From the NCBI GenBank assembly GCA_030737835.1, contig JAUJYN010000013.1, positions 4,205,354 through 4,269,353 on the forward strand: a stretch of 64,000 bases of DNA. The letters run 5' to 3'. The notes beneath the pieces were generated by a model. The model was not told the DNA's origin, did no database searches, and saw only the letters and a list, made by a program, of their open reading frames with translations. Shown in pieces: positions 5,486-52,551 of this stretch. Source of the stretch: Acorus gramineus (lineage: Eukaryota > Streptophyta > Magnoliopsida > Acorales > Acoraceae). Positions within the stretch are counted from its first letter, which is position 1. Each line of letters begins with the position of its first letter. A program made the position numbers and the translations under genes.

Positions 5486-8400
5486 CTACTCTACAACCGA
5501 AATCCCCTTCAAGACCTCCAAAACCTCCTCCATCGACGGCCTCATCTCCCTCTCCCCCTCCAAGCACCGCAAAGCCAGATCCCCCACCGCAGCAACCATC
5601 CTCTTCACCTTCCAATCCGAATCAAACCCCAAATTCGGGTCCACCAACTCACCCAACGAGCCATTACGAATCTTCTCAACCGCCATGTTCGAAAGATTTA
5701 TCTCCCGCCTCCCCCTCGCGAGATCCACTGCGCGCTTCGACGATATAAGCTCGACCAGCACAACTCCAAAGCTATATACGTCGCTCTTGTTTGTCAATTG
5801 ATAGCAGATCCGGTACTCGGGGTCCACGTACCCCGGCGTGCCTTGCGGGGCGGTGGACACGTGCGTGGCGTCCATCGGGAACAGACGGGAGAGCCCAAAG
5901 TCCGCCACCTGTTAGGAAATATATTATATCTCAACAAATAATTATTTTGAAGAATCAATATACGGAAAATCAATAATATAAAAACAAAATATTCCGTAAT
6001 TTAATAAAATTTGGATCATAATTAAAATATATCTAACACCACCTTCACCCGGAAATCGCCGTCCAATAAGATGTTATTGGTCTTCACGTCGCGGTGGATG
6101 ATTGGGGGATCGGCCGCGTGGAGGTACGTGAGCGCCTCCGCCGTCTCGATTGCGACACGCATGCGGACGGGCCACGTGAGGGCGTTCTTGGGGGAGAGGG
6201 GGCCGTGGAGGTGGTCGGCCAGCGTTCCGTTGGGGACGTACTCGTAGACGAGGAGGAGGTCGCGGCCGTGGCGGGAGGTGCATCCGTAGAGGGAGACGAG
6301 GTTGGGGTGGCGGAGGCGGTTGAGGATCGCCACTTCGTTCATGAATTGCTCCACCCGCTTGTAGTTGTTCTTGTAGAGGCGCTTCACCGCCACGACGCGC
6401 CCGTCCTGAAGTTTTCCTAGAGAGTTTAAAAGAGCCCAGTTACACCCAGTTTTTTTTTTTTAGAGTTTTAAATTGAAGTAACTCATTAACTCCTTCCACT
6501 CGCTCTAATAAAATATATATCTCATTAAAAATATTCACATCTTCAATAAATAATATCGTTCAATTAATTGGATGGTATATTTCATCTTTTATAAAATCAC
6601 ATGCCTTATTATACATGATATACATGTTTTTAAAAACAAAAAACATGTTCGATCTGTATTTTGTACTGTGAAATGAATTGAGTGTATTACATTTCCTATT
6701 TAAAATTTGAAGGTGATTGTTTGTTCAAAAACATACATTGAAAAGTGGCATAAACGAAAAAGCTATTTGTAAAATTCCCTTTAAGTATAATTTTTTGGGG
6801 TCTCAAATAGAATTATTCATCCTTTAACGTTGTACTTGGATAGATTCCAATCTATGTAAAATAAGTAATCTTTTTATCTGATTGGCTTTTTGACAAATTT
6901 TATAGTGATTTTTTTGTTTTTTGGTTTACTCTAAATAAATCGTGAACTATATAATATATAACTTTAAAAAGACCATATAAATTGTTTGTGTTTAGGAATG
7001 TGTATGAGAAATGTATGCGTGATATGATATATATATTCTTTTAGGATTAGTGTGGGTGTTGGAGGATTTTAAAAATTATATAAGACTATATTTTTATCCA
7101 TTATTACACATGAACTCTAATAAGCAATTCCAGCCCTTTCCAAAATAATTATAATTAATCGTTTACCCTAACTTATTAGATATACTTATCAGACTGTGAT
7201 CATACACTACACTAATGCATCGAGAGTAGTATCATGATGAGTGATCTTCTGGGAGTTCACGCGTTGCACTGACCAATAAAAAACATATAATTTCTTTTTG
7301 CCTATATAGTATACCCTTATTAATTCTTGGATTATTTCACAACCCCAAATCAGAGAACAGAGTCTGCTTTCGCTAAATTATGTAAACAAGGAGGATATAC
7401 CTTTGTAGACGGTGCCGAAACCGCCGTTACCGAGTTCCCGCGAAGAGCTGAAGTTGTCGGTGGCCTCCTGGAGCTCTCCGTAACTGAAAAGGTGTTCGTG
7501 GTGAACAGGGTCGCAGAGTTCTGTGTCCCATTTGAAGGAGTCCTCGGACGAAACAGAGTCTGATGAAGAAGCGTTCGAAGGGAGTGTTCTACGTTGTCGT
7601 CTGCGAAGGCGCCGACAGACAAAGAAGACGATCGCCAATGCAATTAAGGAGCCCCCAACCGCCGATCCAACGACTAGGGAAAAAAAAAAATTTAAAAATG
7701 ATTTTGAGATATGCATCTTCAACCACAATAGCAAAGCCATTCAAATTTGTTAGAATGGTCCAAACAATGTTTTTGGTTGGTTGTTTTTGATAACCAAAAA
7801 GGTGTGCACTCCAGGTATGCTAGTTATATTGAAAAGGTATTTATATTTCATTACTTTTGAATCAAAACCATAATTTAATTATACAATAACAACACATTTC
7901 GACCCTATCAATCATGCGGAGCTACTAATTAATTTCAGGAGATATTAAAAAAAATCAATAGTTCATCAATATTGAGGCTCCCCCGTTTGGATCCGTGGTG
8001 GGAAAGCCGATAAAATGTTATGGGGAACCCATGCTGATTTAGATCATTATTTTGACGTTTCAAAAGCTCTCCAAACAATGATTCTTCTATGCTGGTTTTT
8101 AGTATCACTGGATTTTCCAGAACGAGGACATCCCCACTGCGAATCCAAATGGTGACAAAAGAAAATGCAAAAGAAAGTACATGTAACTTACCTATCCCAA
8201 TCTTTGTTTTATTACCCTTCTTTTTATTTGAAGATTGGTTCCCCGAGGGAGGGGGTGGCTTGTGCTTATTGCCTGCCAATTCATAAGAGACATCAGCAAT
8301 TAGATACCATTAGAACATAGAATCAACTCAAAAATCAGTAGACCTCATTTTCATAATCAATACTTAAATTTTAAAACACAAAAAAAAAAAAAATGCGCAT

Positions 8401-8948
8401 TTACATTTTACTTGCACATCATTCCAGTACTCGGCCAGTCGTGACGAGTTGAAGAATCTTAAGTATTGGCACTCAGGAAGATGAAATGGAGGAAGCTCCA
8501 CAGACATGTGACCATCTTCAAAGAGTAGTATCAATTCAAAGCCCAAATGGCCCATGGAAGGATCGGTTTGTAGCCAGTAAGAGATATTGTAATTTCCAAT
8601 AATATCAGCATCTTCGCAGCAGTTCAATCTGTGCAGATCATTTTCATGGGGAACATATTTGTCGTAGCAGGTAATGTTGGGGGCGGATATTTGATCGATA
8701 TGCAAGCAGGATATATCTATTTGGTCAGGGTCGTTACAAGTATGGAAGAGATAGAAAACTTTGGATACTTGAATGACATTCAGATTAGGTGTCCTTGTTT
8801 TTTCAATTTCACCATCACATAGAAGCAGTGGGGTTTTATCATCACACTGTGTATCTGTGTATGGCATGCTAAAGTGAAGAGGAAGGTGAGAGAGGAGAAG
8901 GAGGAGTGAGGAGAAGAGGATGAGAGAGGAAGGAAAGGTGGAATCCAT
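5486..8948 (-). CDS. Gene A: LRK10-like (LRK10L-1 type) receptor protein kinase, RD class, five exons
   Basis: Probable plasma-membrane Ser/Thr receptor kinase. Exons from sequence: 8948-8405, 8272-8192, 7673-7401, 6416-6043, 5908-5486. All introns are GT-AG; the first three are phase 1, the last phase 0. Together they give 564 residues with no interruption. Residues 1-27 form a signal peptide. A Cys-rich extracellular part runs to about 207, with a Lys/Pro-rich juxtamembrane exon (about 182-208). One membrane helix spans about 209-229, followed by a basic stop-transfer. Kinase: glycine loop LGNGGFGTVYKG (289-300), Lys311 in VAVK, Glu327, HRDVKTNN (407-414), DFG (427-429), TPGYVDPEY. All catalytic residues are present. 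The kinase closely resembles plant LRK10L-1 proteins (RVEQFMNE, STAPQGTPG, ELISSKRAVD). The ectodomain is shorter than usual for the family and only loosely WAK-associated-like. The C-terminal tail is short. Ligand unknown. The exon model is my inference from splice signals and phase. Confidence 0.85.
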
Positions 8949-9040
8949 GGGTAACGAAAGGAACTGTTAGTCGTAGCTGTGCAGGGGATGAGACCATGGG
9001 AGAGGCAACCATGAAGAAGTACCTGATTTTTAAAGTTGTT
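8949..9040 (-). promoter_or_regulatory. 5' leader of gene A with an overlapping upstream ORF
   Basis: On the minus strand, ATGGTTGCC upstream of the gene A start opens a frame of about 45 codons. It runs past the main ATG (8948) in a different frame and stops inside exon 1. A candidate splice acceptor (AATCAG/GTAC) lies just before it, so the leader may be spliced. The same arrangement is kept in gene B and fragment D. An overlapping upstream ORF would be expected to lower translation of the receptor. This is inference; the transcription start is unknown. Confidence 0.35.
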
Positions 9041-9349
9041 TGGAATTTTCTTTTCCTTGCTTGACCTGGCCAATTGACTTGGATGTGGGAATTGGGGATA
9101 CCTCCTCTGTTTCCGTGTCATGAGTCAAGTCTTTGGACATGTTTGTAAAGATTTCACACCTCTCCGTCCTTTTCAAGTGGTTGGAGAGAATTTCTTCTCG
9201 TGCTCTCTGGTTAACGTTGGGATAAAAATAGAGAATAAATGTTATTCTGAATAACAAAATTTCATTCTTAATTCAAGTTAACGAAGGATAATTGTACACA
9301 TTTTATCTCAGTTTTTTCTTTTACAGTTGTGGATGGAAAAATATGCACC

Positions 9350-10050
9350 ATGTTAAAAGATGACACGTGTCAGGGCTTAGACGGGTATTGACCACCACAT
9401 CCGACACCTAAGAACCCAACCTAATAGCGGAATACCAAGCAGGCATTCCTGAGTAGGTGAGACACAACCATATTGAATCAGGTCTGGTTCGACTGTTTTA
9501 CATCTCGCGGGCGAATGCCATCCTGAGTAGGTGGGACACGACCGGATTGAATCAGGTCTGGTCGGACGGTCTTACACCTCGTGGACGAATAACCAGGTAC
9601 ACGCCGTGCAGGGCCCCGTGTTCCAACCAGACCAAGACCACGAGGAGGACTTCAGAAATGGTCAGACACCCATAACGCCTGTAATCGTCAGATGAATGAT
9701 TAAGGCGCAGTACTTATAATACATGGGTAATTAAGGATAAATTTAGCTACAATAAAGCAAGACGGTTACTACAAAATTCACCCACTAAACAACCATTAAG
9801 GTATAGTTGTTAGAACGGCCATTAGGCCAGTGACAATGGCTATCTAGCGCTCATGAACCCTATAAAAGGGAAGGTTAACAGCAAACTGAGGTATGAGTTA
9901 ACTTTTAATCAAGCCACATAATTAGTGAGATAAACCTTTGAATTTCCTTACTGATACATCGCTTCGGAGTCCTTTTGGCTGGCACCACATCGGTGTTCCC
10001 CTGATTCCTTTTTGAGTGTAGGATCCACGTTCAATTGGGTCCGGATTCGA
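9350..10050 (+). mobile_element. Tat-like LTR remnant (solo), copy 1
   Basis: The block has a promoter-like TATAAAAGGG at 9861-9870. Downstream, GGCTGGCACCACATCGGTG resembles the end region of the LTR at 52552-53403 (AGCTAGCACCACATTGATG). Inside is a tandem duplication of about 74 bp (about 9448-9522 and 9523-9597), each unit starting TCCTGAGTAGGTG. No primer-binding site or coding region follows, so it is probably a solo LTR. I could not fix TG/CA ends or a target duplication. The same block at 26287 shows it was present before the flank duplicated. Confidence 0.5.
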
Positions 10051-11365
10051 GAAGAATGCTCTGTTCGATTGTTTTGTTTGAAAGGGAAAAATACCACTTC
10101 AACTGTGAAATAATAATTTGTTGTCTAGTCACTTATTTCACTATTTATTGTCTTATCCTCACACTAATTCTTTAAGCTAAAATATAGATTAATTTATTTT
10201 TTATTCTATTTTAGTTATTCTTATTTGGAAATGTAATAATTTAATTTTTGTTGTTTGATTAATCATGGATAAAGTGTTATAAAAGATGAATAAGATATGC
10301 ATAATTTATAAAATATGAAAAAAATGATTTGATACAAGTAAATTTAAAATTTTAAAAAAAATGTGAAAAGAGATTTGTATATGAGATTTTATTACAAATC
10401 ATTATGAGGAGAAGTGATATGTAATCACGTCTTAGAAGAGGCGCGATTTACAATCATGCTTACTATGTCATAAAAGAAAAAAAATCCAGTCAACGATTGA
10501 AGTAGCAGTGCTGACCTGGTCAAAATTAACCTAGGGCCAGTTTTGAAATAAAAACTAGACTAGGGTCAATCTTGAAATTAAAAATGTAATGGGCTTAAAA
10601 ATAAAAATTGCCCTCGTAATTATAAGAGATGTGTTGGCTAGTGATTTGACATATGAACCCCTCTTATACTGGTGGAATAAATTGGGTAGAATAAGACAAT
10701 TCGATGTGAGATTTGGAATACGAGTATCAGCTTAATTATTCTTATATATTCCGACATAGCTATAAATAAATTTTTAAACTTATTCAGCTATATTCTACCA
10801 TGTTCTTATCCTGTTCCGCGACCGTAACTGGGCTTAACTAAAATAAGCCATCAATTATATATCGTATTATATATCCTCAAGTAGAAGTTTGTCTTTTGGA
10901 GTTGGGGCTAAATGAGTCGTCCCTCCTAAAGGGATAGGCTGATTATTCAAAGCAAGCTAATATGTGAATACCAAAGGTAGTTTCTGTTAGAAATTATGCA
11001 ACTTTGTTTCATGAGAGATAAATTAAATATATTTTGATATTGATTTTGTCATATAATATATGTTATTAATTGCTTGGGTTCACTGTCTTGGTTTTAGAGT
11101 TGATGTACTTGGTGGTTTTAACATTAATTCCGTTCGTAACAGTTTGTTTTCTTAAAAGGATGTTTGTGCACCCCTTCTTTTATCACATGTTTTCAAAGAG
11201 ATATTATTGTAATTGAATAGCAGATCAGATTACATAATCTTATCCTATATGATCTTATCCTACTAAATTTGTTATGAGTTGTTCCAAGAGATATGATGAG
11301 TTGTTAGTGTAAATCCCATCTCTCTCTCTTATAAAGATATGTAAATCTTTTGAAGTTATCTTTAT

Positions 11366-11460
11366 GTGAGTGGTCATAGCGCAACGGTTCAGAGTTTAGC
11401 GGTGTTACCGATAGATTCTGGGTTCGAGTCTTGGCACTGACTTACCCACCTGTTTATTTT
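11366..11460 (+). repeat. tRNA-derived SINE-like block, copy 1
   Basis: Contains an A-box-like CATAGCGCAACGG (11375-11387) and a B-box-like GGGTTCGAGTC (11420-11430), about 33 bases apart. That is the layout of the internal RNA polymerase III promoter of tRNA-derived SINEs. No cloverleaf with acceptor stem is evident, so it is not a tRNA gene. Copies lie at 28404 and 30430. Confidence 0.5.
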
Positions 11461-11728
11461 ACTATACAGAGAGTATACAATTACACAAACCAGTCCATTC
11501 AACAGTCACAAGGTGTTTCCTAAAACCTTTTAATTTGGAATGCACCTTGAGAATAGTAAGATATCGTTGTATCCTTGGAATGGACCGTCAGTGAACTATT
11601 GCACCATTGTGGGGGCATAACTGCTTTTTAGAAAGTGCATTTGCGTGCTTCGATCCACCACTTTTGTCAGATTTTTCTAACTCTACTTAATTCCATTTTG
11701 TTGTGATTTTTCAAAATTAGAAACCTTA

Positions 11729-12171
11729 AGCCTCTGTCTGGATAGAGAATTAAGTTATTATGAGATTTATGACTATTCTAGTATAAATAAGAATAAAATG
11801 ATATTGTGTTTGGTTGTGTTTTAAAATATTCTTGTCAGAAAACATAATAATAAAGTTTTTGTTGTTTGAGTAAAATGTGAATAAGGTGTGGATAAAAATT
11901 TATAAAGGATGAAAAAATGATGATAGTTAATTTGACAATTGATTTATAAGAGGTGGTGACAATTGATTTGTTAGTAGACCCACATATTTTTTTTGGTTAA
12001 ATAATCTGGAATAATTAATTTCAGGGGTTACCTATAATTTTTATACCACTTTATATCAGTTTATTCTGGTATACAAATTCTCATTTATTTTAGCTATCCA
12101 AACAGCATTAAATCCTTTATTTCACATTATATCCATTTATTCAACCTTCGATTCCCAATCCAAACATGGGT
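11729..12171. mobile_element. Tourist-like (PIF/Harbinger) MITE, copy 1
   Basis: A 443-bp AT-rich element. Imperfect inverted ends: AGCCTCTGTCTGGATAGAG at the left, and at the right a sequence whose complement is ACCCATGTTTGGATTGGG. TTA flanks both sides (11726-11728 and 12172-12174), the target duplication typical of PIF/Harbinger. No coding capacity. Present in all three flank copies. Confidence 0.6.
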
Positions 12172-12764
12172 TTAGTGTTTTTCCAACCGTTTCTATGTGC
12201 TTTCTTACCAATAATTTATACAACTTCCCCCTTAATGTGATGTAAGCTTATGACACGGGCTAGTGTTAGGTGCATTTGATCATACAAGCTCCACCTGCAT
12301 TGGCCTCTTGCTAAACAAAACGGCTTTAATTATCTGTCTAATGTCGATTTTAACTAAATAAGGTACTCAACCATGTTTTTTGGAGTCAACCATGATCTCA
12401 TGGTCGATTATTCAAGCTGGTACATGGACGATTTGGAGAATAAGCAATGAGGCTCTCTCCTTGGAATTTATTTTGTCAATGCTTGAAGGATTGGGGATGC
12501 TATATAGCGAATGTGAGCACGATTAGTTTCATCGGTGGGAAACAAGTCATAGTAGAGTGAGGGGTACCTGTTGGTGTGTTTTTGTCTGGTTAAATTTTTT
12601 AACCAGGCAGCCGTAGACGATTACCCATGCACTTTCAATTTTTTTCTTCTTCTCTTTCTCTACTTCTCTCACCTAGTTTCAGATTTATGCTTCAAATTTA
12701 ATAATGAAATTGCAATAACAATATCTATATTTTTTTGGAGTCTTCTCGTTGATACAACTTACAG

Positions 12765-15201: not shown

Positions 15202-15273
15202 CCCTACTTGCCCCCTCTCCAATCTTTTATGAAATTGATTACTGAGTCCCACACATTTTCAATGTAGAACCTG

Positions 15274-15490: not shown

Positions 15491-15709
15491 GTTAGGGAGA
15501 CATCGACAAATTTTCAATCGGTTGTCCTTCCATTTAAATAGAGACTGATCCCATGTTGCAAATGGAGTAAAATAAATCATAATAGCACTTAGGATCTTGA
15601 TTAACATGTTTACGAATACTATAATCATATTTTTCTGCCATGCATGATCATTATAGTATATACATATATATACACACACACACAAACCTTTCTCCGTGGT
15701 AAGTAGCAT

Positions 15710-18455: not shown

Positions 18456-19379
18456 CTAGGCTGTTGGTCACCCTTGGTCCACCGATAGTCTCTCCTCCAC
18501 TCCGTAGGCCGCCTGGTCTACTCCCACATTCAGCACAGTCCGTCCAAAATCAGGAGGTGCCTACTAATGGGAGCCCTCTGTCAGGAAGGCCCTGTCTAAC
18601 GCTGGGGTAGTCTCTACCGGATCCAACGAAGGGAACAGAACAGCCTAACCATCGCATATGATCCACTTGGATCCGCAGACGACACATTATAACAACACTA
18701 ATGTTCTGAATTCCTCAGAACCCACCAGGGCGCATAACTACGATGCGGGGAACATGCATAAGGTTATAACAAGGTGGAATATCGTTGGGGAAAGAAACTC
18801 GGGAGGGCAGCGTGAGTTCCCGTTATAGGACACCCCGACAACCAAACAAGGAACACGGTGTACCCTAACCCGGGTCTCACCGCTGTCCTCGCAAGGCCCC
18901 TCCCCTATAATATTCACTATAACGTGCATTGTAAACAAATACTAGCATTTAATCAAATAAATAAACTAGTAGGGCACATGCATCGGCCGGGCTTCCTAAC
19001 ATGGAACCAGGGGACATGCTGCATGGCTCATATACATATCCTAAGGGTGCAAGTCCCTAACATGCAAGGTCTAGGGTAACATGCATTCTACAGTTAAATC
19101 ACGCTCGCATGATATACATATCATTGCAGGTTAATATTTATCCATGACGCCCCAGGAGAGGTCGGTATACGCCCAAATGCGTATGACCCCTCTCTACTGG
19201 GTTGGATTGTCCCACTCACCAGTATTCGGGTCGACGCGCGACCGTCCGTCGAGATCTGCAAGACAAGGTATTAACTGGTTAGAATAAATCCACAGTTATC
19301 CCAAAATACATAACATACACCAATAAACACCCAAAGTTCCCAAACAAATCCCCCAACACCCTCGGCACCCCCGCACGGC

Positions 19380-20010
19380 CACCCGATCGCCCGGACGCGC
19401 CACCGCGCCTCAGCCCGCGCACTCCGTGCACCGCCCGGGGCCCCGCGCGTCAACCGAGCCCAGCCGCGGCAGCCCGCACGCGCCCCGCACGCCGTGCGCA
19501 CGCTCCACGCCCCGCGCGCCGGCATGCGAGCACCCCGCGCGCCCCCCACGCGCAGAGCCTCGCCTCGCGCGCACCTCGCGCCACCTCGCCGCACCTCGCC
19601 GCGCCTCGCGCGCACCACCGCGGCCTCACCGCGCCCTCCGCGCACCGCCACGGCCTCGCCGCGGCCTCCGCGCACCGCCACGGCCTCGCCGCCGCCTCCG
19701 CGCACGCCATCCGCACCCTCAGCCACGGCCTCGCGCACGCCACGGCCTCGCGCACGCCATCCGCACCCTCAGCCACGGCCTCGCGCACGCCACGGCCTCG
19801 CGCACGCCATCCGCGCACCCGCGCGACCTGCTCCACGCGCATCAGCCGCCCAGCTCGCCCAGCACCGGCCTCTGCTCGCCCAGCACCGGCCAGCACCCTG
19901 CACCAGGCCCGCGCGCCCTCGCGCTCACGCCGCGCGTACGCGCGCCCGCGCACGCACGCGCGCCTGCCCGCGCGCACCCGACCTGGCGCCGCCTGGGCTG
20001 CTGCTGCTGC
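19380..20010. repeat. Extremely GC- and CpG-rich LTR segment
   Basis: Low-complexity GCGCGC/GCACGCC sequence open on both strands for 150-240 codons, giving only Ala/Arg/Pro-rich translations. The same segment occurs in the full element at about 31730-32480 and 39770-40480. I read it as LTR sequence, not genes. It includes a repeat CTCAGCCACGGCCTCGCGCA (about 19722-19810). Confidence 0.75.
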
Positions 20011-21019
20011 TGCTGCTTGGCCCGGACGACCTGCCACTGCCCGAGCGCCACCACCACCTCTCCCTTGACCACCGACCACCCTCCAACCACTTCCGACCGC
20101 CCTCCGACCACCTCCACTGCCGCCGACCACCCCCAAACACCCAATCCACCTTCCTAGCATTCATCTATGCAAGAAAAGGAGGGAAAGGAGGCTTACCGAG
20201 GGGAGGGGAAGACGTTCGGTAGCTCTCCGCGCGCCGAAACCTTCCTCAAAGGCTTTCCCACGCCCCGATCTATCACGGCCCTCGATTTGGCTCGAAACAG
20301 AGGAGAGAGAGAGGAGGTCGGGGAGGCTAGGATCGTCGGAATTCGGATTTGAAGACACCGGAGTGTAGATCGGGACCCGATCTACACTTCCCGTGCTTTG
20401 GGTTTTCGATTTTGAGGGGTGGAGGGGGCTCAAACGGAAGAAAAACGGAGAAGGGGAGAGGGGAAATCACGTCGGGAGGGATGATGAATAGTGTAGGGGT
20501 GATTTTTGATTTCTTTTATATAGCGCGCGACTTAAAAACCCGGATACGCCCCGGAACTGGGAAATTTTTGCAAACGATGCCAGAATTCAATGAAATTTCG
20601 TGAGAGGTCTAAAATGGCACCAGGACACCAAATATGCAGTCAGATTTCCAATCGGAGTCCTCTAGCTCAGGACGATAGCTAACAGTCCAAAAATTGGCGG
20701 TTCCGATCGAAAACCCTAAAAAATTTTAAAACTGCTAGGGCGCTCTAACGGTTACCAACAGGTTAAAAGTGACACATATATAACATTAAAAATTACAAGA
20801 GGATGACTAGAAGGACCCCTAATTAATTTTCCCATTAATAAGGGATGTGCATAAGTATTTATTCAAAATGCATGAGACACAAGATTACCACAATCGTTTT
20901 GGATTTTAAACTTACATCGAACATGTTCGTTTTGAGTATTAAATCCTTACAAATCTTTACAAAATACAGAACAATATAATAGACTTTTTTATTGCGTAGT
21001 ACTCACAAAAATACACAGA

Positions 21020-24000
21020 TCACATGCTCTTAGATGTTAGAGATGTGGTATCCTTTATTGTATCGACAGAAAAACTTTGTAGCTCAAAAGGTTCTACTGT
21101 GGATGAAGGAAAGAATGGCTTTGGTGGATTTTCAATGCCATCATGATCTCCCTTTAACATCTCCAAAACTCTATTTATCGGAGGTCGATTAGAGGGATTT
21201 ATCTGTATGCACCACAAGCCTACTAGTACCATCTTCCTAGCAATGCACAACCCTTCATCGACAAGCATCGTTTCATTCCATTGATCAAGTTGGGTGTAAA
21301 TCCAATCAGGAAAGTACGATATACTAGACCGTTCATCTACAAATTTGGTGTTCTTCCTTCCTACAATCATGTCCAGTAATAACATCCCATAGCTATAGAC
21401 ATCAGATTTATGTGTAACACACCCAACACTCCTCATAAAAACTTCTGGAGCTATATAGCCTATCGTCCCTCGTGCACACGTCAAGGAGACCACACTATTC
21501 TTTCGAGAGTACAATTTTGCTAGTCCAAAATCAGATATCTTTGGATGATAATCGTGGTCTAACAAGATATTCTGGGGCTTAATATCCAAATGTAAGATCC
21601 GTGTGTCACAACCACTATGCATATATTGGATGCCTTCTGCGATACCTATTGCAATTTCAAGTACTTTCTCTCGGCTTAGACTACGTCTCGCCTCTTCATC
21701 AAAGATCAAGTCTCCAAGTGATCCATTAGGCATATATTCATATATTAGAGCTCGTATCGACCCTTCACAACAGAAGCCAAGAAGCCTTATAATATTGAAG
21801 TGGTGGATTCTGCCAATAGTTGCAACTTCATTGATGAAATCCTGACCATTGTCCTTGGACTTCTCTAAGATCTTTGCAGCAATGGGGTGACCATTTGCTA
21901 GTTTTCCTTTATAAACACTCCCATAACCTCCTTGGCCTAATTTATTTCGGAAGCCATTTGTCAATCTTTTTACCTCCAGGTATGAGAATTTTGTAGGAAG
22001 CATAGAATGATAATCTTTCATAAATTTTTCCACAATAACATTATCATTGCTGGTCTCTTTGGAGAAGATATAGTAGATCAATGAGCCCCTCCATCTGGAC
22101 ATGATCAGAAATGCAACTACTAATATAACAATAGCTGCTGTGGCGACAGAGACTCCTGCAATTATGAAGGGAGATATATAACAGTCATTCATAATCATTC
22201 AATTTCTAAAACAACATCAATTTTTTGAACTTTAAGAAATGCAAAGATAAAGATAACGGTCAATGTAATAGTAAACAAAAGGCTAAAAAAAATCAATATG
22301 AACATAGGGACAAGCAAAGTAAAATACCTACAGTAATCTTGCTTGTTCTCTTCTTGCCTACAAAGTCTAGTATCAATTCATACTAGCTGGATGTATGCGC
22401 ACCCGCGAGTAATCTATACTCAGTTTGAATTGAATTATATAAGCTACTTTATATTATAATTAGAAGATAAACAAGAGTTCATATTATTATAAGCAATTCT
22501 TTTAAAACAAAAAGAATGTTTGATAACTTGGGTTCTATCTTGTATATTTTATATTTTTGAAACAAAAAAATTATTATTTTGTTTCAGCATATACTTATTT
22601 TTCATATAACAATTCTATTTACAACTTGAAATACACCTTTATGTACCTCTTTATTCATTTAATAGTCATCTAATAACGATATATATATATATATATACCT
22701 TTGTATGTGAGATATATACCTTATTAATTTTTTTTAACATTTACTAAAAATGAGTACATTAAATTCAAAATGGTGTAATGTTTACTATTTTAAAAAATTA
22801 AAATATGTGATAACTGCATTTGAGGTTGTATTTGGGACTGTATCTAACATTAAGTGAAGATCCATTCAAAGTTATATTAAACATACAATTAAAAAAACAT
22901 CTATTCCTTCTCTTTTAGGGACATTAATTTTTGAAAATTTTTAGATTCAATCATTTTTACCGACCAAAATTAAGACCACAAAAAAATCAACCATTACATT
23001 TGATGAGAGTATGCACAGTCAACCATATAATCCAATTTTCGACAACTGCATGTCAATTAAAAAACAATTATCGAACCTCATACAAACAATCTAACTTCCG
23101 TGAAAAAACTAAAAATATACTTATTCTCACATATAAAAAAAAGTGATATATTGATCCAAAATCAATAAAAAAAAATTTTAAATTCGAAAACAAGACACCC
23201 ATCAATTAATTTTATGGGGATCAAATGAGTTCAATTCCATCTGTAATTTATGTATTTATTAATATGACTAAAATATTCATATTGTATAATTTTATGGATG
23301 TCTGAAAAATCATCGAATAAAATTTGAAGTCCGAGAAGTCATGTTCTGAGATTAGGGATCTGCTTATAATTCTTGGAATCTGAATCAGGGAGTTATTTGT
23401 AACACATATTAGGGTCTAGTTGTGAAACTGACAGAATATGGGGACTTAGTTAAAAATATGATGGACTTGTTTATAACACATATAGGGGTCTTTTTGTAAA
23501 TCCTATAGAACAGGGTGTCCTATCTGAAAAATGATCATGATGAAATTACAAAACTACCCTCGGTACGCCCATCCACTTGTACTTTATAGAAGAGTAAAGA
23601 TATGCTACTAGTACATTGTGATGATGGAAATGTAATACAGAATATGAGTAGAGGCATCTAAATACCATGCCTTAATTTGGTTATTGGGTTTAAAATTCTT
23701 GTAAGCATGAAAGATCTAAGTATCTCCCAAATTTTTAACCCTAAAAAATGCGATCACCATCACTGTCCAATTCAATAAAATTTAATCTAATGGTGAAGAG
23801 ATCTATAAAAAAAAATCATTTAATTTTTAAGAGAGAAAGGGACTTGGAGAGATTGGGAGTTCATGGGAGAAAAAGGGGAATCACAGCTCTGAAAGATGAT
23901 ATTCATTGAGAAAGCAATTAATCAGACGGCTTTTTAATGTTAGAAAGAAAGATAAAAGAGAGAGACAGAGAGAACTTTAGCATCCAATATTTGAACTTAA

Positions 24001-25883
24001 TTCCTAAGTACGAGCTCCTCTGCCTTTATTATAACACCAAGATTTGTCTCTGCCTTTTGTTTTTAATTAAAAAATGATAGCACATAACAAAATGAACGGG
24101 AAAGAAACTTTGAAAAAAAAAGTGATAACCCATCAAACTAAATATCTGTAAACTAAATATTTTACTCGATTAGTCATTTATATTTCATTAATTTTGAATT
24201 AATATCATAATTTAATTTTACAATCACACATTTCGACCCTATCAATAACATGGATCTACTAATCTCAGGAGATAAAATTAAACCAATATTTCTAAAGCAC
24301 TGATATTACACTCAATTCGTTTTGCAGCTCCATACGTTATAATAGTATAGTATATATTATATCATCATAGTGTATGGGTTCTATCATAATATATGATGTA
24401 AAAATTATCATTTTTTAAACATGAAAAAATACACTAATGCATTTCAGTATATACTTCATTTTATATAACTGCATATACTTCAATGAAAGAATGTATGATT
24501 TTTTAAAAAAAGAAAATCGGTGTGAACTGCAATTAGGGCTGCAATGGGGGTTGGACGTATCATATTCCATATATCTATACTAAGATGCCACCATTTGGAC
24601 TTGTGGTGGAAAAGCCCATAAAACATCATGGATCCAAACGGGTTTATCACACCATCCATCCTCACTCATTCAGATAATTTTTTGAAGTTTCAAAAGCCTT
24701 TCAAACAATGATTTCTCTACACTGGTTTTTAGAGCATCTCCAATCACACCGCCTAAATATTTCTTACATTTAAGAGTCAATAAAGATAGAAGGCCATTTA
24801 AAGAGTGTATTCTTTAACTTTGTTCCCTTAATGACTCCATATAAAAATTTGAAAGTATTTATATCACAAAGTGATGTGAGGCTCGGGCAATAGGGAGCTA
24901 AATTTCACTCCTATGTGTGGGGAGACTTCCTCAGCGGAGAATGTTTAATGTTAAATATAATGAGTCTATTTTTTTATTTTTTCTTCAAATATGACTTAGG
25001 AGCCTCTAACTCCATTAACATTGGAGATACTGTACCCCTAGATTTTCCAGAACTCTTACATCCCCACTGCGAATCCAAATGGTGACAAAAGAAAATGCAA
25101 AAGAAAGTACATGTAACTTACCTATCCCAATCTTTGTTTTATTACCCTTCTTTTTATTTGAAGATTGGTTCCCCGAGGGAGGGGGTGGCTTGTCCTTATT
25201 GCCTGCCAATTCATAAGAGACATCAGCAATTAGATACCATTAGAACATAGAATCAACTCAAAAATCAGTAGACCTCATTTTCATAATCAATACTTAAATT
25301 TTAAAACACACACAGGAAAAAAAATTGCGCATTTACATTTTACTTGCACATCATTCCAGTACTCGGCCAGTCGTAACGAGTTGAAGAATCTTAAGTATTG
25401 GCACTCAGGAAGAGGAAATGGAGGAAGCTCCACAGACATGTGACCATCTTCAAAGAGTAGTATCAATTCAAAGCCCAAATGGCCCATGGAAGGATCGGTT
25501 TGTAGCCAGTAAGAGATATTGTAATTTCCAATAATATCAGCATCTTCGCAGCAGTTCAATCTGTGCAGATCATATTCATGGGGAACATATTTGTCGTAGC
25601 AGGTAATGTTGGGGGCGGATATTGGATCGATATGCAAGCAGGATATATCTATTTGGTCAGGGTCGTTACAAGTATGGAAGAGATAGAAAACTTTGGATAC
25701 TTGAATGACATTCAGATTAGGTGTCCTTGTTTTTTCAATTTCACCATCACATAGAAGCAGTGGGGTTTTATCATAATCACAGTGTGTATCTGTGTATGGC
25801 ATGCTGAAGTGAAGAGGAAGGTGAGAGAGGAGAAGGAGGAGTGAGGAGAAGAGGATGAGAGAGGAAGGAAAGGTGGAATCCAT
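21020..25883 (-). CDS. Gene B: chimeric LRK10L receptor kinase, gene A-type ectodomain with LRK10L-2-type non-RD kinase
   Basis: Inferred exons: 25883-25337, 25202-25122, 22155-21020, all joined in phase 1 (about 587 residues). A 30-base exon at 22357-22328 (acceptor TTGTAG, donor GTAG/GTATTT, also phase 1) may be included, adding 10 residues. Exon 1 (signal peptide, Cys-rich ectodomain) and exon 2 (KPPPPSGNQSSNKKKGNKTK) differ from gene A at about seven residues. The kinase exon differs: membrane helix about residues 210-228, LGQGGYGSVYKG (282-293), Lys304, HLDIKPQN (398-405), DFG (418-420), GTIGYIAPEV. HLD instead of HRD marks a non-RD kinase of the Lr10/PR5K-like group. All catalytic residues are present and the frame is clean. 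The 3-kb second intron holds a MITE. Splicing of these exons together is inference; otherwise the kinase exon would have no ectodomain in the window. Confidence 0.68.
24733..25031. mobile_element. MITE with GCATCTCCAAT ends, in gene B intron 2
   Basis: 299 bp. Left end AGCATCTCCAAT; right end ATTGGAGATACT, whose complement is AGTATCTCCAAT. Gene A's intron lacks it: there TTTTTAG runs straight into TATCACTGG (about 8095-8108). Flanks here are TTA and GTA, close to but not a clean PIF/Harbinger TTA duplication. The identical copy in gene C (51621) shows insertion before the B/C duplication and after the A/B split. Confidence 0.7.
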
Positions 25884-28403
25884 GGGTAACGAAAGGAACT
25901 GTTAGTCGTAGCTGTGCAGGGGATGAGACCATGGGAGAGGCAACCATGAAGAAGTACCTGATTTTTAAAGTTGTTTGGAATTTTCTTTTCCTTGCTTGAC
26001 CTGGCCAATTGACTTGGATGTGGGAATTGGGGATACCTCCTCTGTTTCCGTGTCATGAGTCAAGTCTTTGGACATGTTTGTAAAGATTTCACACCTCTCC
26101 GTCCTTTTTCAAGTGGTTGGAGAGAATTTCTTCTCGTGCTCTCTGGTTAACGTTGGGATAAAAATAGAGAATAAATGTTATTCTGAATAACAAAATTTCA
26201 TTCTTAATTCAAGTTAACGAAGGATAATTGTACACATTTTATCTCAGTTTTTTCTTTTACAGTTGTGGATGGAAAAATATGCACCATGTTAAAAGATGAC
26301 ACGTGTCAGGGCTTAGACGGGTATTGACCACCACATCCGACACCTAAGAACCCAACCTAATAGCGGAATACCGAGCAGACACTCCCAAGTAGGTGAGACA
26401 CGACCAGATTGAATTAGGTCTGGTTCGACTGTTTTACATCTCGCGGGCAATTGCCATCCTGAGTAGGTAGGACACGACCAGATTGAAACAGGTCTAGTCG
26501 GACGGTCTTACACCTCGTGGACGAATAACCAGGTACACGCCGTGCAGGACCCCGTGTTCCAACCAGACCAAGACCACGAGGAGGACTTCAGAAATGGTCA
26601 GACACCCATAACGCCTGTAATCGTCAGATGAATGATTAAGGCGCATTACTTATAAAACATGGGTAATTAAAGGCAAATTCAGCTACAATATAGCAAGGCG
26701 GTTACTACGAAATTCACCCACTAAGCAACCATTAAGGGAGAGTTGTTAGAACGGCTATTAGGCCAGTGACAATGGCTATCTAGCTCATGAACCCTACAAA
26801 AGGGAAGGTTAACAACAAATTGAGATATGAGTTAACTTTTAATCAAGCTACATAATTAGTGAGATAAACCTTTGAATTCCCTTACTGATACATCGCTTCG
26901 GAGTTCCTTTGGCTGGCACCACATCGGTGTCCATCTAATTCCTTTTTGAGTGCAGGATCCATGTTCAACTGGGTCCGGATTCGAGAAGAATGCTCTGTCC
27001 GATTGTTTTGATTGAAAGGGAAAAATACCACTTCAACCGTGAAATAATAATTTGTTGTCTAGTCACTTATTTCACTATTTATTGTCTTATCCTCACACTA
27101 ATTCTTTAAGCTAAAATATAGATTAATTTATTTTTTATTCTATTTTAGTTATTCTTATTTGGAAATGTAATAATTTAATTTTTGTTGTTTGATTAATCAT
27201 GGATAAAGTGTTATAAAAGATGAATAAGATATGCATAATTTATAAAACATGAAAAAAATGATTTGATACAAGTAAATTTAAAATTTTTAAAAAATGTGAA
27301 AAGAGATTTGTATATGAGATTTTATTACAAATCATTATGAGGAGAAGTGATATGTAATCACGTCTTAGAAGAGGCGCGATTTACAATCATGCTTACTATG
27401 TCATAAAAGAAAAAAAAAATTCAAGTCAGCGGTTGAAGTAGCAGTGCTGACTGGTCAAAATTAACCTAGGCCAGTTTTGAAATAAAAACTAGACTAGGGT
27501 CAATCTTGAAATTAAAAATGTAATGGGGTTAAAAATAAAAATTGCCCTCGTAATTATAAGAGATGTGTTGGCTAGTGATTTGACATATGAACCCCTCTTA
27601 TACTGGTGGAATAAATTGGGTAGAATAAGACAATTCGATGCGAGATTTGGAATACGAGTATCAGCTTAATTATTCTTATATATTCCGACATAGCTACAAA
27701 TAAATTTTTAAACTTATTCAACTATATTCTACCATGTTCTTACCCTATTCCGCTACCGTAACAGGGCTTAACTAAAATAAGCCATCAATTATATATCGTC
27801 TTGTACCGATCTCTTTCAACGATCATTCATCCGTCAAAGGTTCGGTAACTCTTTTCCAGCTCCACGATGACGATGTTTAATAAAGTCCCTGGAAGTTTGT
27901 TTTGGTGGGTCCTCAAGGAGAAGTTTGTCTTTTGGAGTTGGGGCTAAATGAGTCGTCTCTCCTAAAGGGATAGGCTGATTATTCAAAGCAAACTAATATG
28001 TGAATACCAAAGGTAGTTTCTGTTAGAAATTATGCAACTTTGTTTCATGAGAGATAAATTAAATATATTTTGATATTGATTTTGTCATATAATATATGTT
28101 ATTAATTGCTTGGGTTCACTGTCTTGGTTTTAGAGTTGATGTACTTGGTGGTTTTAACATTAATTCCGTTAGTAACAGTTTGTTTTCTTAAAAGGATGTT
28201 TGTGCACCCCCTTCTTTTATCACATGTTTTCAAAGAGATATTATTGTAATTGAATAGCAGATCAGATTACATAATCTTATCCTATATGATATTATCCTAC
28301 TAAATTTGTTATGAGTTGTTCCAAGAGATATGATGAGTTGTTAGTGTAAATCCAATCTCTCTCTCTTATAAAGATATGTAAATCTTTTGAAGTTATCTTT
28401 ATG

Positions 28404-28500
28404 TCATTAGTCATAGCACAATGGTTCAGGGTTTAGCGGTGTTATCGATAGATTCTGGGTTCGAGTCTTGACGCTGACTTACCCACCTGTTTATTGACGC
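28404..28500 (+). repeat. tRNA-derived SINE-like block, copy 2
   Basis: Same A-box/B-box arrangement as at 11366, with several substitutions (TCATAGCACAATGG; GGGTTCGAGTC). This copy alone is followed by a T-rich tail region absent from the other two. Confidence 0.45.
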
Positions 28501-28869
28501 TAATTTATAAGATTGAAAAAAGTTTTTTTAAATTACTTTCAGTTTTACATCTCTTCATTGAATATATAGATAAGAGGGTTGTGTTGTCCACGACTATACA
28601 CAGAGTATACAATTACACAAACCAGTCCATTCAACAGTCACAAGGTGTTTCCTAAAACCTTTTAATTTGGAATGCACCTTGAGAATAGTAAGATATCTTT
28701 GTATCCTTGGAATGGACCGTCAGTGAACTATTACACCATTGCACCATTGTGGGGGCATAATCTGCTTTTTAGAAAGTGCATTTGCGTGCTTCGATCCACC
28801 ACTTTTGTCAGATTTTTCTAACTCTACTTAATTCCATTTTGTTGTGATTTTTCAAAATTAGAAACCTTA

Positions 28870-29311
28870 AGCCTCTGTCTGGATAGAGAATTAAGTTATT
28901 TTAAGATTTATGACTATTCTAGTATAAATAAGAATAAAATGATATTGTGTTTGGTTGTGTTTTGAAATATTCTTGTGAGAAAACATAATAATAAAGTTTT
29001 TGTTGTTTGAGTAAAATGTGAATAAGGTGTGGATAAAAATTTATAAAGGATGAAAAAATGATGATAGTTAATTTGACAATTGATTTATAAGAGGTGGTGA
29101 CAATTGATTTCTTAGTAGAGCCACATATTTTTTTTGGTTAAATAATCTGGAATAATTAATTTCAGGGGTTACCTATATTTTTATACCACTTTATATCAGT
29201 TTATTCTGGTATACAAATTCTCATTTATTTTAGCTATCCAAACAGCATTAAATCCTTTATTTCACATTATATCCATTTATTCAACCTTCGATTCCCAATC
29301 CAAACATGGGT
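28870..29311. mobile_element. Tourist-like MITE, copy 2
   Basis: Same ends and TTA flanks as the copy at 11729, with a few substitutions. Confidence 0.58.
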
Positions 29312-29702
29312 TTAGTGTTTTTCCAACCGTTTCTATGTGCTTTCTTACCAATAATTTATACAACTTCCCCCTTAATGTGATGTAAGCTTATGACACGGGC
29401 TAGTGTTAGGTGCATTTGATCATACAAGCTCCACCTGCATTATTGGCCTCTTGCTAAACAAAACGGCTTTAATTGTCTGTCTAATGTCGATTTTAACTAA
29501 ATAAGGTACTCAACCATGTTTTTTGGAGTCAACCACGATCTCATGGTCGATTATTCAAGCTGGTACATGGACGATTTGGAGAATAAGCAATGAGGCTCTT
29601 TCCTTGGAATTTATTTTGTCAATGCTTGAAGGATTGGGGATGCTATATAGCGAATGTGAGCACGATTAGTTTCATTGGTGGGAAACAAGTCATAGTAGAG
29701 TG

Positions 29703-30061
29703 AGGGGTATCTGAATGACATTCAGATTAGGTGTCCGTGTTTTTTCAATTTCACCATCACATAGAAGCAGTGGGGTTTTATCATAATCACAGTGTGTATC
29801 TGTGTATGGCATGCTGAAGTGAAGAGGAAGGTGAGAGAGGAGAAGGAGGAGTAAGGAGAAGAGGATGAGAGAGGAAGGAAAGGTGGAATCCATGGGTAAC
29901 GAAAGGAACTGTTAGTCGTAGCTGGGCAGGGGATGAGACCATGGGAGAGGCAACCATGAAGAAGTATCTGATTTTTAAAGTTGTTTGGAATTTTCTTTTC
30001 CTTGCTTGACCTGGCCAATTGACTTGGATGTGGGAATTGAAGAGTCATCAGTCAAGTCTTT
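29703..30061 (-). pseudogene. Fragment D: 5' part of the LRK10L ectodomain exon
   Basis: Holds the start codon (29893), signal peptide and about 61 residues identical or nearly identical to gene B exon 1, then ends at the codons for LNVIQ (29703). The leader is kept to about 30061. Both edges join flank DNA: the left joins the end of flank copy 2, and the right joins a point inside the flank (ATGAGAGATAAATT). It is therefore a partial duplication, not a gene. It could only encode a secreted peptide if transcribed. Confidence 0.8.
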
Positions 30062-34039: not shown

Positions 34040-34044
34040 AAAGT

Positions 34045-47404: not shown

Positions 47405-50400
47405 GAAGAGAGTGGAAGGGCATATTTGGTACAACAAGTATCTCCTAACACATGTTAACCAGGAATTTAGAAATAATATAATTAAAAAATTGGGACCTAA
47501 AGATATCTCCAAATAGATAAGGGACATAAAGATATCTCCAAATAAACCAGAGACATAAAAATTACAAGAGGATGACTAGGACCCCTAATTAATTTTCCCA
47601 TTAATAAGGGATGTGCATAAGTATTTATTCAAATTGCATGGGACACAAGATTACCATAATCGTTTTGGATTTTAAACTTACATCAAACATGTTCGTTTTA
47701 AGTATTAAATCCTTACAAATCTTTACAAAATACAGAACAATATAATAGACTTTTTTTATTGCGTAGTACTCACAAAAATACACAAATCACATGCTCTTAG
47801 ATGTTAGAGATGTGGTATCCTTTATTGTATCGACAGAAAAACTTTGTAGCTCAAAAGGTTCTACTGTGGATGAAGGAAAGAATGGCTTTGGTGGATTTTC
47901 AATGCCATCATGATCTCCCTTTAACATCTCCAAAACTCTATTTATCGGAGGTCGATTAGAGGGATTTATCTGTATGCACCACAAGCCTACTAGTACCATC
48001 TTCCTAGCAATGCACAACCCTTCATCGACAAGCATCGTTTCATTCCATTGATCAAGTTGGGTGTAAATCCAATCAGGAAAGTACGACATACTAGACCGTT
48101 CATCTACAAATTTGGTGTTTTTCCTTCCTACAATCATGTCCAGTAATAACATCCCATAGCTATAGACATCAGATTTATGTGTAACACACCCAACACTCCT
48201 CATAAAAACTTCTGGAGCTATATAGCCTATCGTCCCTCGTGCACACGTCAAGGAGACCACACTATTCTTTCGAGAGTACAATTTTGCTAGTCCAAAATCA
48301 GATATCTTTGGATGATAATCGTGGTCTAACAAGATATTCTGGGGCTTAATATCCAAATGTAAGATCCGTGTGTCACAACCACTATGCATATATTGGATGC
48401 CTTCTGCGATACCTATTGCAATTTCGAGCAATTTCTCTCGGCTTAGACTACGTCTCGCCTCTTCATCAAAGATCAAGTCTCCAAGTGATCCATTAGGCAT
48501 ATATTCATATATTAGAGCTCGTCTGGACCCTTCACAACAGAAGCCAAGAAGCCTTATAATACTGAAGTGGTGGATTCTGCCAATAGTTGCAACTTCATTG
48601 ATGAAATCCTGACCATTATCCTTGGACTTCTCTAAGATCTTTGCAGCAATGGGGTGACCATTTGCTAGTTTTCCTTTATAAACACTCCCATAACCTCCTT
48701 GGCCTAATTTATTTCGGAAGCCATTTGTCAATCTTTTTACCTCCAGGTATGAGAATTTTGTAGGAAGCATAGAATGATAATCTTTCATAAATTTTTCCAC
48801 AATAACATTATCATTGCTGGTCTCTTTGGAGAAGATATAGTAGATCAATGAGCCCCTCCATCTGGACATGATCAGAAATGCAACTACTAATATAACAATA
48901 GCTGCTGTGGCGACAGAGACTCCTGCAATTATGAAGGGAGATATATAACAGTCATTCATAATCATTCAATTTCTAAAACAACATCAATTTTTTGAACTTT
49001 AAGAAATGCAAAGATAAAGATAACGGTCAATGTAATAGTAAACAAAAGGCTAAAAAAAATCAATATGAACATAGGGAGAAGCAAAGTAAAATACCTACAG
49101 TAATCTTGCTTGTTATCTTCTTGCTTGCAATGTCTAGTATCAATTCATACTAGCTGGATGTATGCGCACCCGCGCGTAATCTATACTAAGTTTGAATTGA
49201 ATTATATTAGCTACTTTATATTATAATTAGAAGATAAACAAGAGTTCATATTATTATAAGCAATTCTTTTAAAACAAAGAATGTTTGATAACTTGGGTTC
49301 TATCTTGTATATTTTATATTTTTGAAACAAAAAAATTATTATTTTGTTTCAGCATATACTTATTTTTCATATAACAATTCCATTTACAACTTGAAATACA
49401 CCTTCATGTACCTCTTTATTCATTTAATAGTTATCTAATAACGATATATATATATATACCTTTGTATGTGAGATATATACCTTATTAATTTTTTTTAACA
49501 TTTACTAAAAATGAGCACATTAAATTCAAAATGGTGTAATGTTTACTATTTTAAAAAATTAAAATATGTGATAACTGCATTTGAGGTTGTATTTGGGACT
49601 GTATCTAACATTAAGTGAAGATCCATTCAAAGTTATATTAAACATACAATTAAAAAAACATCTATTCCTTCTCTTTTAGGGACATTAATTTTTGAAAAGT
49701 TTTAGATTCAATTATTTTTACCGACCAAAATTAAGACCACAAAAAAATCAACCATTACATTTGATGAGAGTATGCACAGTCAACCATATAATCCAATTTT
49801 CGACCACTGTCAATTAAAAAACAATTATCGAACCTCATACAAACAATCTAACTTCCCTGAAAAAACTAAAAATATACTTATTCTCACATATAAAAAAAAA
49901 GTGATATATTGATCCAAAATCAATAAAAAATTTAATTCGAAAACAAGACACCCATCAATTAATTTTATGGGGATCAAATGAGTTCAATTCCATCTGTAAT
50001 TTATGTATTTATTAATATGACTAAAATATTTATATTTTATAATTTTATGGATGTCTGAAAAATCATCGAATAAAATTTGAAGTCCAAGAAGTCATGTTCT
50101 GAGATTAGGGATCTGCTTATAATTCTTGGAATCTGAATCAGGGAGTTATTTGTAACACATATTAGGGTCTAGTTGTGAAACTGACAGAATATGGGGACTT
50201 AGTTATAAATATGATGGACTTGTTTATAACACATATAGGGGTCTTTTTGTAAATCCTATAGAACAGGGTGTCCTATCTGAAAAATGACCCTGATGAAATT
50301 ACAAAACTACCCTCGGTACGCCCATCCACTTGCACTTTATAGAAGAGTATAGATATGCTACTAGTACATTGTGATGATGGAAATGTAATACAGAATAGAG

Positions 50401-50444
50401 TAGAGGCATCTAAATACCATGCCTTAATTTGGTTATTGGGTTTA

Positions 50445-50636
50445 AAATTCTTGTAAGCATGAAAGATCTAAGTATCTCCCAAATTTTTAACCCTAAAAAA
50501 TGCGATCACCATCACTGTCCAATTCAATAAAGTTTAATCTAAATTCTTGTAAGCATGAAAGATCTAAGTATCTCCCAAATTTTTAACCCTAAAAAATGCG
50601 ATCACCATCACTGTCCAATTCAATAAAGTTTAATCT
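50445..50636. repeat. 96-bp tandem duplication in gene C intron
   Basis: AAATTCTTGTAAGCATGAAAG... is repeated head-to-tail with period 96 (second unit starts 50541). Gene B has one unit (about 23692-23790), so it arose after the B/C duplication. Confidence 0.85.
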
Positions 50637-51620
50637 AATGGTGAAGAGATCTATAAAAAAAAATCATTTAATTTTTAAGAGAGAAAGGGACTTGGAGAGA
50701 GATTGGGAGTTCATGGGAGAAAAAGGGGAATCACAGCTCTGAAAGATGATATTCATTGAGAAAGCAATTAATCAGACGGCTTTTTAATGTTAGAAAGAAA
50801 GATAAAAGAGAGAGACAGAGAGAACTTTAGCATCCAATATTTGAACTTAATTCCTAAGTACGAGCTCCTCTGCCTTTTTTATAACACCACGATTGAACCA
50901 CAACTACATCACCACAAGATTTGTCTCTGCCTTTTGTTTTTAATTAAAAAATGATAGCACATAACAAAATGAACGAAAGAAACTTTGAAAAAAAAAGTGA
51001 TAACACATCAAACTAAATATCCGTGAACTAAATATTTTACTCGATTAGTCATTTATATTTCATTAATTTTGAATTAATATCATAATTTAATTTTACAATC
51101 ACACATTTCGACCCTATCAATAACATGGATCTACTAATCTCAGGAGATATAATTAAACCAATACTTCTAAAGCACTTATATTACACTCAGTTCGTTTTGC
51201 AGTTCCATATATTATGATAGCATAGTATATACTGCACCATCATAGTGTATGAGTTCTATCATAATATATGATGTAAAAATTATCATTTTTTAAACATGAA
51301 AAAAATATACTAATGCATATCAGTATATACTTCATTTCATATAACTGCATATACTTCAATGAAAAAATGTATGATTTAAAAAAAAAAGAAAATCGGTGTG
51401 AACTGCAATTAGGGCTGCAATGAGGGTTGGACGTATCATATTCCATATATCTATACTAAGATGTCACCATTTGGACTTGTGGTGGAAAAGCCCATAAAAC
51501 ATCATGGATCCAAACGGGTTTATCACTTCTGCGTCCATACCATCCATCCTCACTCATTCAGATAATTTTTTGAAGTTTCAAAAGCCTTTCAAACAATGAT
51601 TTCTCTACACTGGTTTTTAA

Positions 51621-51919
51621 AGCATCTCCAATCACACCGCCTAAATATTTCTTACATTTAAGAGTCAATAAAGATAGAAGGCCATTTAAAGAGTGTATTC
51701 TTTAACTTTGTTCCCTTAATGACTCCATATAAAAATTTGAAAGTATTTATATCACAAAGTGATGTGAGGCTCGGGCAATAGGGAGCTAAATTTCACTCCT
51801 ATGTGTGGGGAGACTTCCTCAGCGGAGAATGTTTAATGTTAAATATAATGAGTCTATTTTTCTATTTTTTCTTCAAATATGACTTAGGAGCCTCTAACTC
51901 CATTAACATTGGAGATACT
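51621..51919. mobile_element. MITE with GCATCTCCAAT ends, in gene C intron
   Basis: Partner of 24733-25031, same length and position relative to exon 2. Confidence 0.7.
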
Positions 51920-52551
51920 GTACCCCTAGGTTTTCCAGAACTCTTACATTCCCACTGCGAATCCAAATGGTGACAAAAGAAAATGCAAAAGAAAGTACAT
52001 GTAACTTACCTATCCCAATCTTTGTTTTATTACCCTTCTTTTTATTTGAAGATTGGTTCCCCGAGGGAGGGGGTGGCTTGTGCTTATTGCCTGCCAATTC
52101 ATAAGAGACATCAGCAATTAGATACCATTAGAACATAGAATCAACTCAAAAATCAGTAGACCTCATTTTCATAATCAATACTTAAATTTTAAAACACAAA
52201 AAAAAAAAAAAAAGCGCATTTACATATCCCATGCACATCACTCCGGTACTCGGCTAGTCGTGACGAGTTGAAGAATCTTAAGTATTGACACTCAGATAGA
52301 TGAAATGGAGGAAGCTTCACGGACATGTGACGAAAGGAAAGGAACTGTTAGTCGTAGCTGTGCAGGGGATGAGACCATGGGAGAGGCAACCATGAAGAAG
52401 TACCTGATTTTTAAAGTTGTTTGGAATTTTCTTTTCCTTGCTTGACCTGGCCAATTGACTTGGATGTGGGAATTGAAGAGTCATCAGTCAAGTCTTTGGA
52501 CATGTTTTTAAAGGTTTCACACTTTCCTCTCCCTCATTTTTGTAGGAGACC

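Follow-up and report, generated by a model that had tools for sequence, protein, structure and literature searches.

Exchange of parts among plant receptor kinases is already known in two forms, one between ectodomains and kinases and one between paralogues. The first is represented by the grass CRK (DUF26) genes, for whose kinase-domain switch the authors of PMC6368629, in the part of that paper available to us, suggest chimeric gene formation after tandem duplication. The second is found in the OAK genes of Arabidopsis, in which, according to the accessible part of PMC3136440, an identical stretch of 2.7 kb that begins shortly before the start codon and extends into the kinase coding region is ascribed to gene conversion. 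Here we describe genes A and B of Acorus gramineus and their relatives, an LRK10-like cluster in which an extracellular domain that we call E stands in front of both RD (arginine-aspartate) and non-RD kinases. We consider it probable that E belongs to a cassette that has been exchanged between the two kinase types by gene conversion or unequal crossing-over. The window, meaning the whole analyzed stretch of 64,000 nucleotides, spans positions 4205354-4269353 of contig C43; the genome searched comprised 398.6 Mb in 137 contigs.

Receptor kinases of the LRK10L-2 type are described in the accessible part of PMC10303076, and the corresponding part of PMC8463890 ties non-RD kinases to innate immunity and presents a non-RD receptor, EFR, that signals without catalysis of its own. 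A literature search whose coverage left most subscription journals outside returned no LRK10L chimera and, in the same partial literature, no case of an ectodomain and promoter repeatedly shared between RD and non-RD kinases.

Results

Genes A and B lie on the minus strand, as do all C43 genes that were compared in detail. The exons of gene A (Table 1) splice to 1695 nt, encoding 564 amino acids with a single terminal stop, while those of gene B splice to 1794 nt, likewise with a single terminal stop. The gene B frame is also open without its 30-nt mini-exon or without exon 2, giving predicted products of 597, 587, or 570 amino acids, depending on the use of these exons. A preliminary description of this DNA had proposed that one ectodomain reads through into two kinase types, with HRD in A and HLD in B. 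Both gene models are open, the kinase motifs are indeed IIHRDVK (RD) and ILHLDIK (non-RD), and the proposed splice points at 25122, 22357, 22328, and 22155 are consistent with the gene B model. The accompanying statement that all joins are phase 1 applies to the exon ends upstream of the kinase exons, but not to the last join of A (6043/5908), which is phase 0. The A/B chimera is real at the DNA level. Mini-exon splicing, for its part, was reportedly the subject of work by Shin et al. in 2015 on Arabidopsis Lrk10 genes.

As had been noted earlier, the two genes are almost identical in their first two exons and at the beginning of intron 2. Exon 1 differs by six substitutions, five of them nonsynonymous, and one in-frame codon, and the identity is 96.8% over 2773 bp (A 8102-10865 versus B 25032-27799). 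Further blocks of 97.3-97.7% extend as far as A 12570 and B 29713, thereby including the promoter and upstream DNA. The tract is a mosaic, with 200-bp windows ranging from 91% to 100%. Intron 2 is layered: the younger layer (97%) runs outward from 8102/25032, and beside A 7839/B 24176 lies an older one, made up of colinear patches of 82% and 86% identity that score 142.5 (the better patch) and 94, whereas 50 shuffles reached at most 50. Similarity had originally been delimited at 7820/24160, which is close to the end of these patches, although the 97% tract itself ends at 8102/25032. A breakpoint within intron 2 was thus rightly expected, but 7839/24176 marks the end of the match to A and not the joint in B. 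The intron of B resembles that of the RD gene L015 to about 24048 and that of a canonical non-RD gene on contig C6 from about 23941. As a complication, a 140-bp piece earlier in the same intron is similar to DNA that lies downstream of that C6 kinase.

The start of intron 2 in A is 72-93% alike, in pieces, to that of L014, L015, L016, L017, and L018, which include both kinase types; L013, L019, and L020 either have no such match or fell outside the comparison. Since this part of the intron is alike across both types, and B has a likely joint between E and a non-RD intron, the presence of E on the two kinase types predates the recent exchanges. We also considered whether the intron-2 patches are dispersed repeats. 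This was rejected or left as weak, since A, B, and gene C are the only places in the window that have them; outside it they recur in L014-L018, A', and B', in a comparison of fetched genes rather than of the whole genome.

The sharing of E between kinase types recurs in the cluster. A second pair, A' and B', located 0.55 Mb from A and B, likewise has a common ectodomain. The promoter and the first two exons, 1.47 kb in all, contain 50 sites that pair A with B and A' with B', none that pair A with A' and B with B', and 1 that supports the third arrangement; an approximately unbiased (AU) test rejected both alternative trees. Farther along the genes, relationships are reversed: the identity of A and A' is 99.5-100% between 7907 and 5509, versus 82-98% in windows from 9499 to 8308, and the kinase windows of B and B' are 98.5-100% identical. 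The site counts and the AU test speak against the A/B sharing as one event, and the single fusion originally envisaged has to be given up, with sharing seen in A/B, A'/B', and L017/L018. Segments of the same kinase cluster form two superblocks at C43 4.205-4.46 and 4.76-4.95 Mb, some 0.5 Mb apart.

The L017/L018 case involves another joint. L018/L037, a third non-RD gene, carries the ectodomain of the RD gene L017 together with 1.8 kb beyond exon 1, at 97.2% identity over 3450 bp and 99.8% over 823 bp, reaching C43 position 4347514. Parts of this common stretch resemble intron 1 of a canonical RD gene. At 4314771-4314748, L018 changes over to sequence that it shares with B and further non-RD E genes; a match to an intron from a canonical non-RD gene begins at 4314236. 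The L018-linked kinase differs from L036, L038, and L039 at a synonymous divergence (dS) of 0.008-0.025, whereas its ectodomain differs from the partners of those kinases at 0.12-0.15 and from L017 at 0.008. L018 contains a tandem repeat of an intron piece of about 380 bp (approximately C43:4316717-4315198), of which L017 has a single copy.

B' contains an exon 2 of A type with 144 bp of A-type intron (98.6%), followed by a second exon-2 stretch (88%) and a B-type intron. Its two exon-2 copies are likely a transfer intermediate that left the old exon 2 behind. The traces in L018 and B' point from RD to non-RD, and by analogy the same direction is likely for B. An older version of E in B was probably overwritten, given the two exon-2 copies of B' and a divergent exon-1 remnant in gene C, where identity to B is 90.5% in a 200-bp window that covers the end of exon 1 and some of intron 1, and 99.0-99.5% in the next three windows.

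Domain E is not the usual ectodomain of either kinase type; related genes carry GUB_WAK_bind and WAK_assoc. The A kinase, which we take to be LRK10L-1-like, is RD and 78-81% identical to C1:12049059, C43:4386982, and C43:4886161, all with GUB_WAK/WAK_assoc exons upstream; in C43:4386982, a first exon with both domains is followed by a mini-exon and a transmembrane exon. The B kinase, presumably Lr10/LRK10L-2-like, is non-RD and 82% identical to C6:933367, which has matches to both domains about 3 kb upstream, and non-RD genes on C1 and C6, paired by position, have the same two domains. By kinase, A and B therefore belong with these genes, but by ectodomain they do not. Because relatives of both kinase types carry those domains upstream, E occupies the place of GUB_WAK/WAK_assoc on both. 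Genome-wide there were 103 GUB_WAK_bind and 39 WAK_assoc matches, and none fell in the E-bearing stretches of C43 (4.21-4.39 and 4.76-4.885 Mb) or in the window. The gene A ectodomain had no Pfam match at an E-value of 10; among nine E copies scanned, two gave chance-level Pfam matches (best E-value, 0.17), and PDB searches with E gave no match (best E-values, 0.97 and 0.52). That E is a diverged GUB_WAK/WAK_assoc domain was rejected or left as weak on the same Pfam and PDB results and on an hhalign probability of 0.2% against the canonical L067 exon.

A protein search with E, covering this genome, returned 24 matches: 12 full exon-1 copies, 5 exon-1 fragments, 5 exon-2 matches, and 2 weak ones, such counts being lower bounds for large families. 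All but the weak matches (E-values of 0.09 and 0.74, off this region) are on C43 at 4.21-4.88 Mb. Nine full copies are intact. Four are paired with RD kinases (A, A', L015, and L017) and five with non-RD kinases (B, B', L013, L014, and L018), as is the damaged L016, which lacks its ATG. In these pairings, 225 bp are unread between the two parts of B', the L015 kinase was read partly, and the L013 kinase is assigned by position across 5.4 kb unread. L019, with a stop, and L020, whose frame is lost near the end, lie upstream of degraded non-RD kinases, and the L019 intron runs into non-RD gene sequence (106 bp, 79%).

The ratio of nonsynonymous to synonymous substitution (dN/dS) for exon 1 is 0.89-1.70 between the four E groups and 0.27-1.47 within groups, where changes are few. 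Positive selection on E was not shown, as none of six tested pairs differed significantly from 1 (smallest P, 0.075). For the non-RD kinase exon, on which kinase ratios were computed, dN/dS is 0.20-0.50 in 51 of 55 pairs, the others being 0.16, 0.19, 0.19, and 0.88, of which 0.16 and 0.88 are based on 4 to 6 changes. All 15 gap intervals among the nine intact E copies are multiples of 3. All frames were kept in 1 of 5000 neutral simulations, and 1 of 5000 left a stop-free copy in each of the four groups, with copies preselected as intact, insertions ignored, and a simple mutation model. With frames kept and dN/dS near 1, we conclude from these patterns that E is translated now, or was until recently, and is fast-changing.

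These results bear on an alternative that we regard as unlikely, namely, that the non-RD genes linked to E arose as by-products of turnover in the array, are now decaying, and yield no receptor. Five exon-1 fragments, broken copies (L016, L019, L020, and gene C), several broken non-RD kinase fragments, and an E dN/dS of about 1 would be expected under it. Against decay, exon 1 and the kinase exons are open in B, B', and L018, the E frames are kept, albeit in copies chosen as intact, and the kinase exons of B, C, and B' have dN/dS of 0.23-0.29 on 6 to 9 changes per pair.

The window also preserves signs of tandem duplication. Gene C is a near-full duplicate of B whose kinase exon is 99% identical to that of B at the protein level, and the map fits duplication of a unit from within exon 1 of A to upstream of B. 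It could accordingly be proposed that each kinase type underwent one old fusion and that a single recent tandem duplication carried the 5' end of A to B, with no continuing exchange. The window does contain a tandem unit, A-B/D-C, and the presence of E on both kinase types with an intron-2 start that is 70-93% alike implies that E is old on each. We nonetheless find this scenario improbable: A groups with B within its block while the kinases group across blocks, a contradiction unless the second block is an artifact, and L017/L018, with its different joint, constitutes a case of its own. An origin of E on non-RD genes, with A as the chimera, is equally improbable, for although intact E copies number five on non-RD and four on RD kinases and E2 copies (L013, L014, and L016) are found on non-RD kinases only, L018 has an RD-type intron, B' has an A-type intron before its older exon 2, and the intron of a canonical RD gene on C1 holds a decayed E-like stretch (12047009-12047071 by DNA, E-value of 1e-5; 12047265-12047471 by profile, E-value of 2e-4 in 102 frames searched), which is weak and whose order relative to another intron piece differs from that in L017. 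This C1 stretch (L066, C1:12047009-12047471) is a possible trace of the source of E.

Table 1. Positions of genes A, B, and C, their shared tracts, and fragment D in the window
Feature	Position	Strand	Basis or remark
Gene A exon 1, signal peptide and domain E	8405..8948	-	spliced model; 97% amino acid identity to B
Gene A exon 2 (linker)	8192..8272	-	spliced model
Gene A exon 3, with transmembrane segment and first part of RD kinase	7401..7673	-	spliced model
Gene A exon 4, kinase with IIHRDVKTNN (RD)	6043..6416	-	motif; Pkinase match; spliced model
Gene A exon 5, remaining kinase and stop	5486..5908	-	spliced model
Gene B exon 1, signal peptide and domain E	25337..25883	-	spliced model; A and B group against A' and B'
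Gene B exon 2 (linker)	25122..25202	-	spliced model; two copies in B'
Gene B mini-exon, KKRTSKITV	22328..22357	-	phase 1 at both ends; like the mini-exon before the transmembrane segment in other non-RD genes (L040, L044)
Final exon of gene B, with transmembrane segment and the non-RD kinase (ILHLDIKPQN)	21020..22155	-	Pkinase match; 82% to C6:933367
Tract of A common with B (97%): exons 1 and 2, promoter, upstream	8102..12570	-	alignment; 200-bp windows
Tract of B common with A	25032..29713	-	alignment
Older intron-2 layer in A	7839..8101	-	alignment and shuffles; recurs in L014-L018
Older intron-2 layer in B (patches)	24176..24732	-	alignment and shuffles
Likely joint where the E cassette of B meets non-RD intron	23941..24048	-	L015 match ends at 24048; C6 match begins at 23941
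Gene C, duplicate of B	47787..52475	-	kinase exon 47787-48965 open; exon 1 lacks about 440 bp, including the ATG
Fragment D, 5' part of exon 1 at the tandem-duplication joint	29712..30039	-	alignment

The rest of the array contains other repeated and decayed elements. Between A and B lies a decayed, rearranged relic of an RD-type kinase (12766-15511), repeated at 42850-45585; its pieces are a transmembrane exon (15511-15296, 84-86%) and kinase segments (13719-13481 and 12766-12867) that are partly inverted. A long terminal repeat (LTR) retrotransposon occupies 31024-42038, with repeats at 31160-34039 and 39221-42038 that are 93.5% alike and gag-pol-like open reading frames (ORFs) between them, and a similar single LTR in the opposite sense lies at 17494-20787. 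Two adjacent long ORFs at 628-2301 have the look of what we take to be a split hAT-type transposase.

Discussion

Our results are most consistent with a fast-changing cassette that comprises the promoter, the first two exons (exon 1 encoding the signal peptide and E), and the beginning of intron 2. It stands before kinases of both types, RD (LRK10L-1-like) and non-RD (Lr10/LRK10L-2-like). Ectopic gene conversion or unequal crossing-over between neighbors would overwrite the sensor and promoter of one gene, and because the joint lies in a phase-1 intron, the sensor could be overwritten without breaking the frame. The current sensor of gene B would derive from A or an A-like RD gene and would probably have replaced an older version of E on the same kinase.

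Several points weigh against this interpretation. The chimeric receptors are predicted from DNA, and partial tandem duplication, instead of conversion, could explain the shared DNA. The restriction of E2 copies to non-RD kinases would fit a non-RD origin of E. Just 9 of the 12 full exon-1 copies are intact and gene C is broken; the L013 gene may be interrupted by a copia-like insertion, as it ceases to resemble L016 some 135 bp beyond exon 1, where a copia-like ORF sits. An E dN/dS near 1 would also fit weak constraint. The direction of transfer for B rests on analogy and not on a junction in B. Finally, the two superblocks may be two haplotypes joined in the assembly, or else a recent duplication.

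More speculatively, the cluster could be a cassette system, in which an undescribed, lineage-restricted sensor domain with its own promoter is copied repeatedly from RD to non-RD genes, making matched receptor pairs. We hold this broader idea to be conceivable rather than probable. If it is true, each round would create a pair with the same sensor and expression and different kinases, and such pairs could be partners (an active kinase and a non-RD immune kinase) or receptor and decoy. Whether or not it is, exchange of the cassette between kinase types illustrates a way in which new sensors could arise in a receptor cluster while its kinases stay as they are. Provided that the chimeric receptors are expressed and bind a common ligand, one recognition part may drive two signaling outputs. 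The genes offer a natural near-isogenic comparison of RD and non-RD kinases under one sensor and promoter, something otherwise approached via engineered chimeras, and E is a candidate new ectodomain family.

The E genes thus combine features of systems that have been described separately. They resemble LRK10L-1 and LRK10L-2/Lr10 genes in their kinase halves and in the mini-exon before the transmembrane exon, but differ in that their ectodomain is not GUB_WAK_bind/WAK_assoc. With the OAK genes, as portrayed in the accessible part of PMC3136440, they share exchange within a tandem receptor kinase cluster; unlike in OAK, where close paralogues of one subfamily and one kinase type are involved, E crosses two kinase types and the joints are intronic. 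As in the CRK genes, to judge from the part of PMC6368629 cited above, an ectodomain has been kept while a kinase of another family was acquired, and ectodomain and kinase trees conflict. Yet the switch between CRK and lectin-type kinases is presented there as fixed in grasses, whereas the E cluster has both kinase types under a near-identical ectodomain and promoter, with recent repeats of the exchange.

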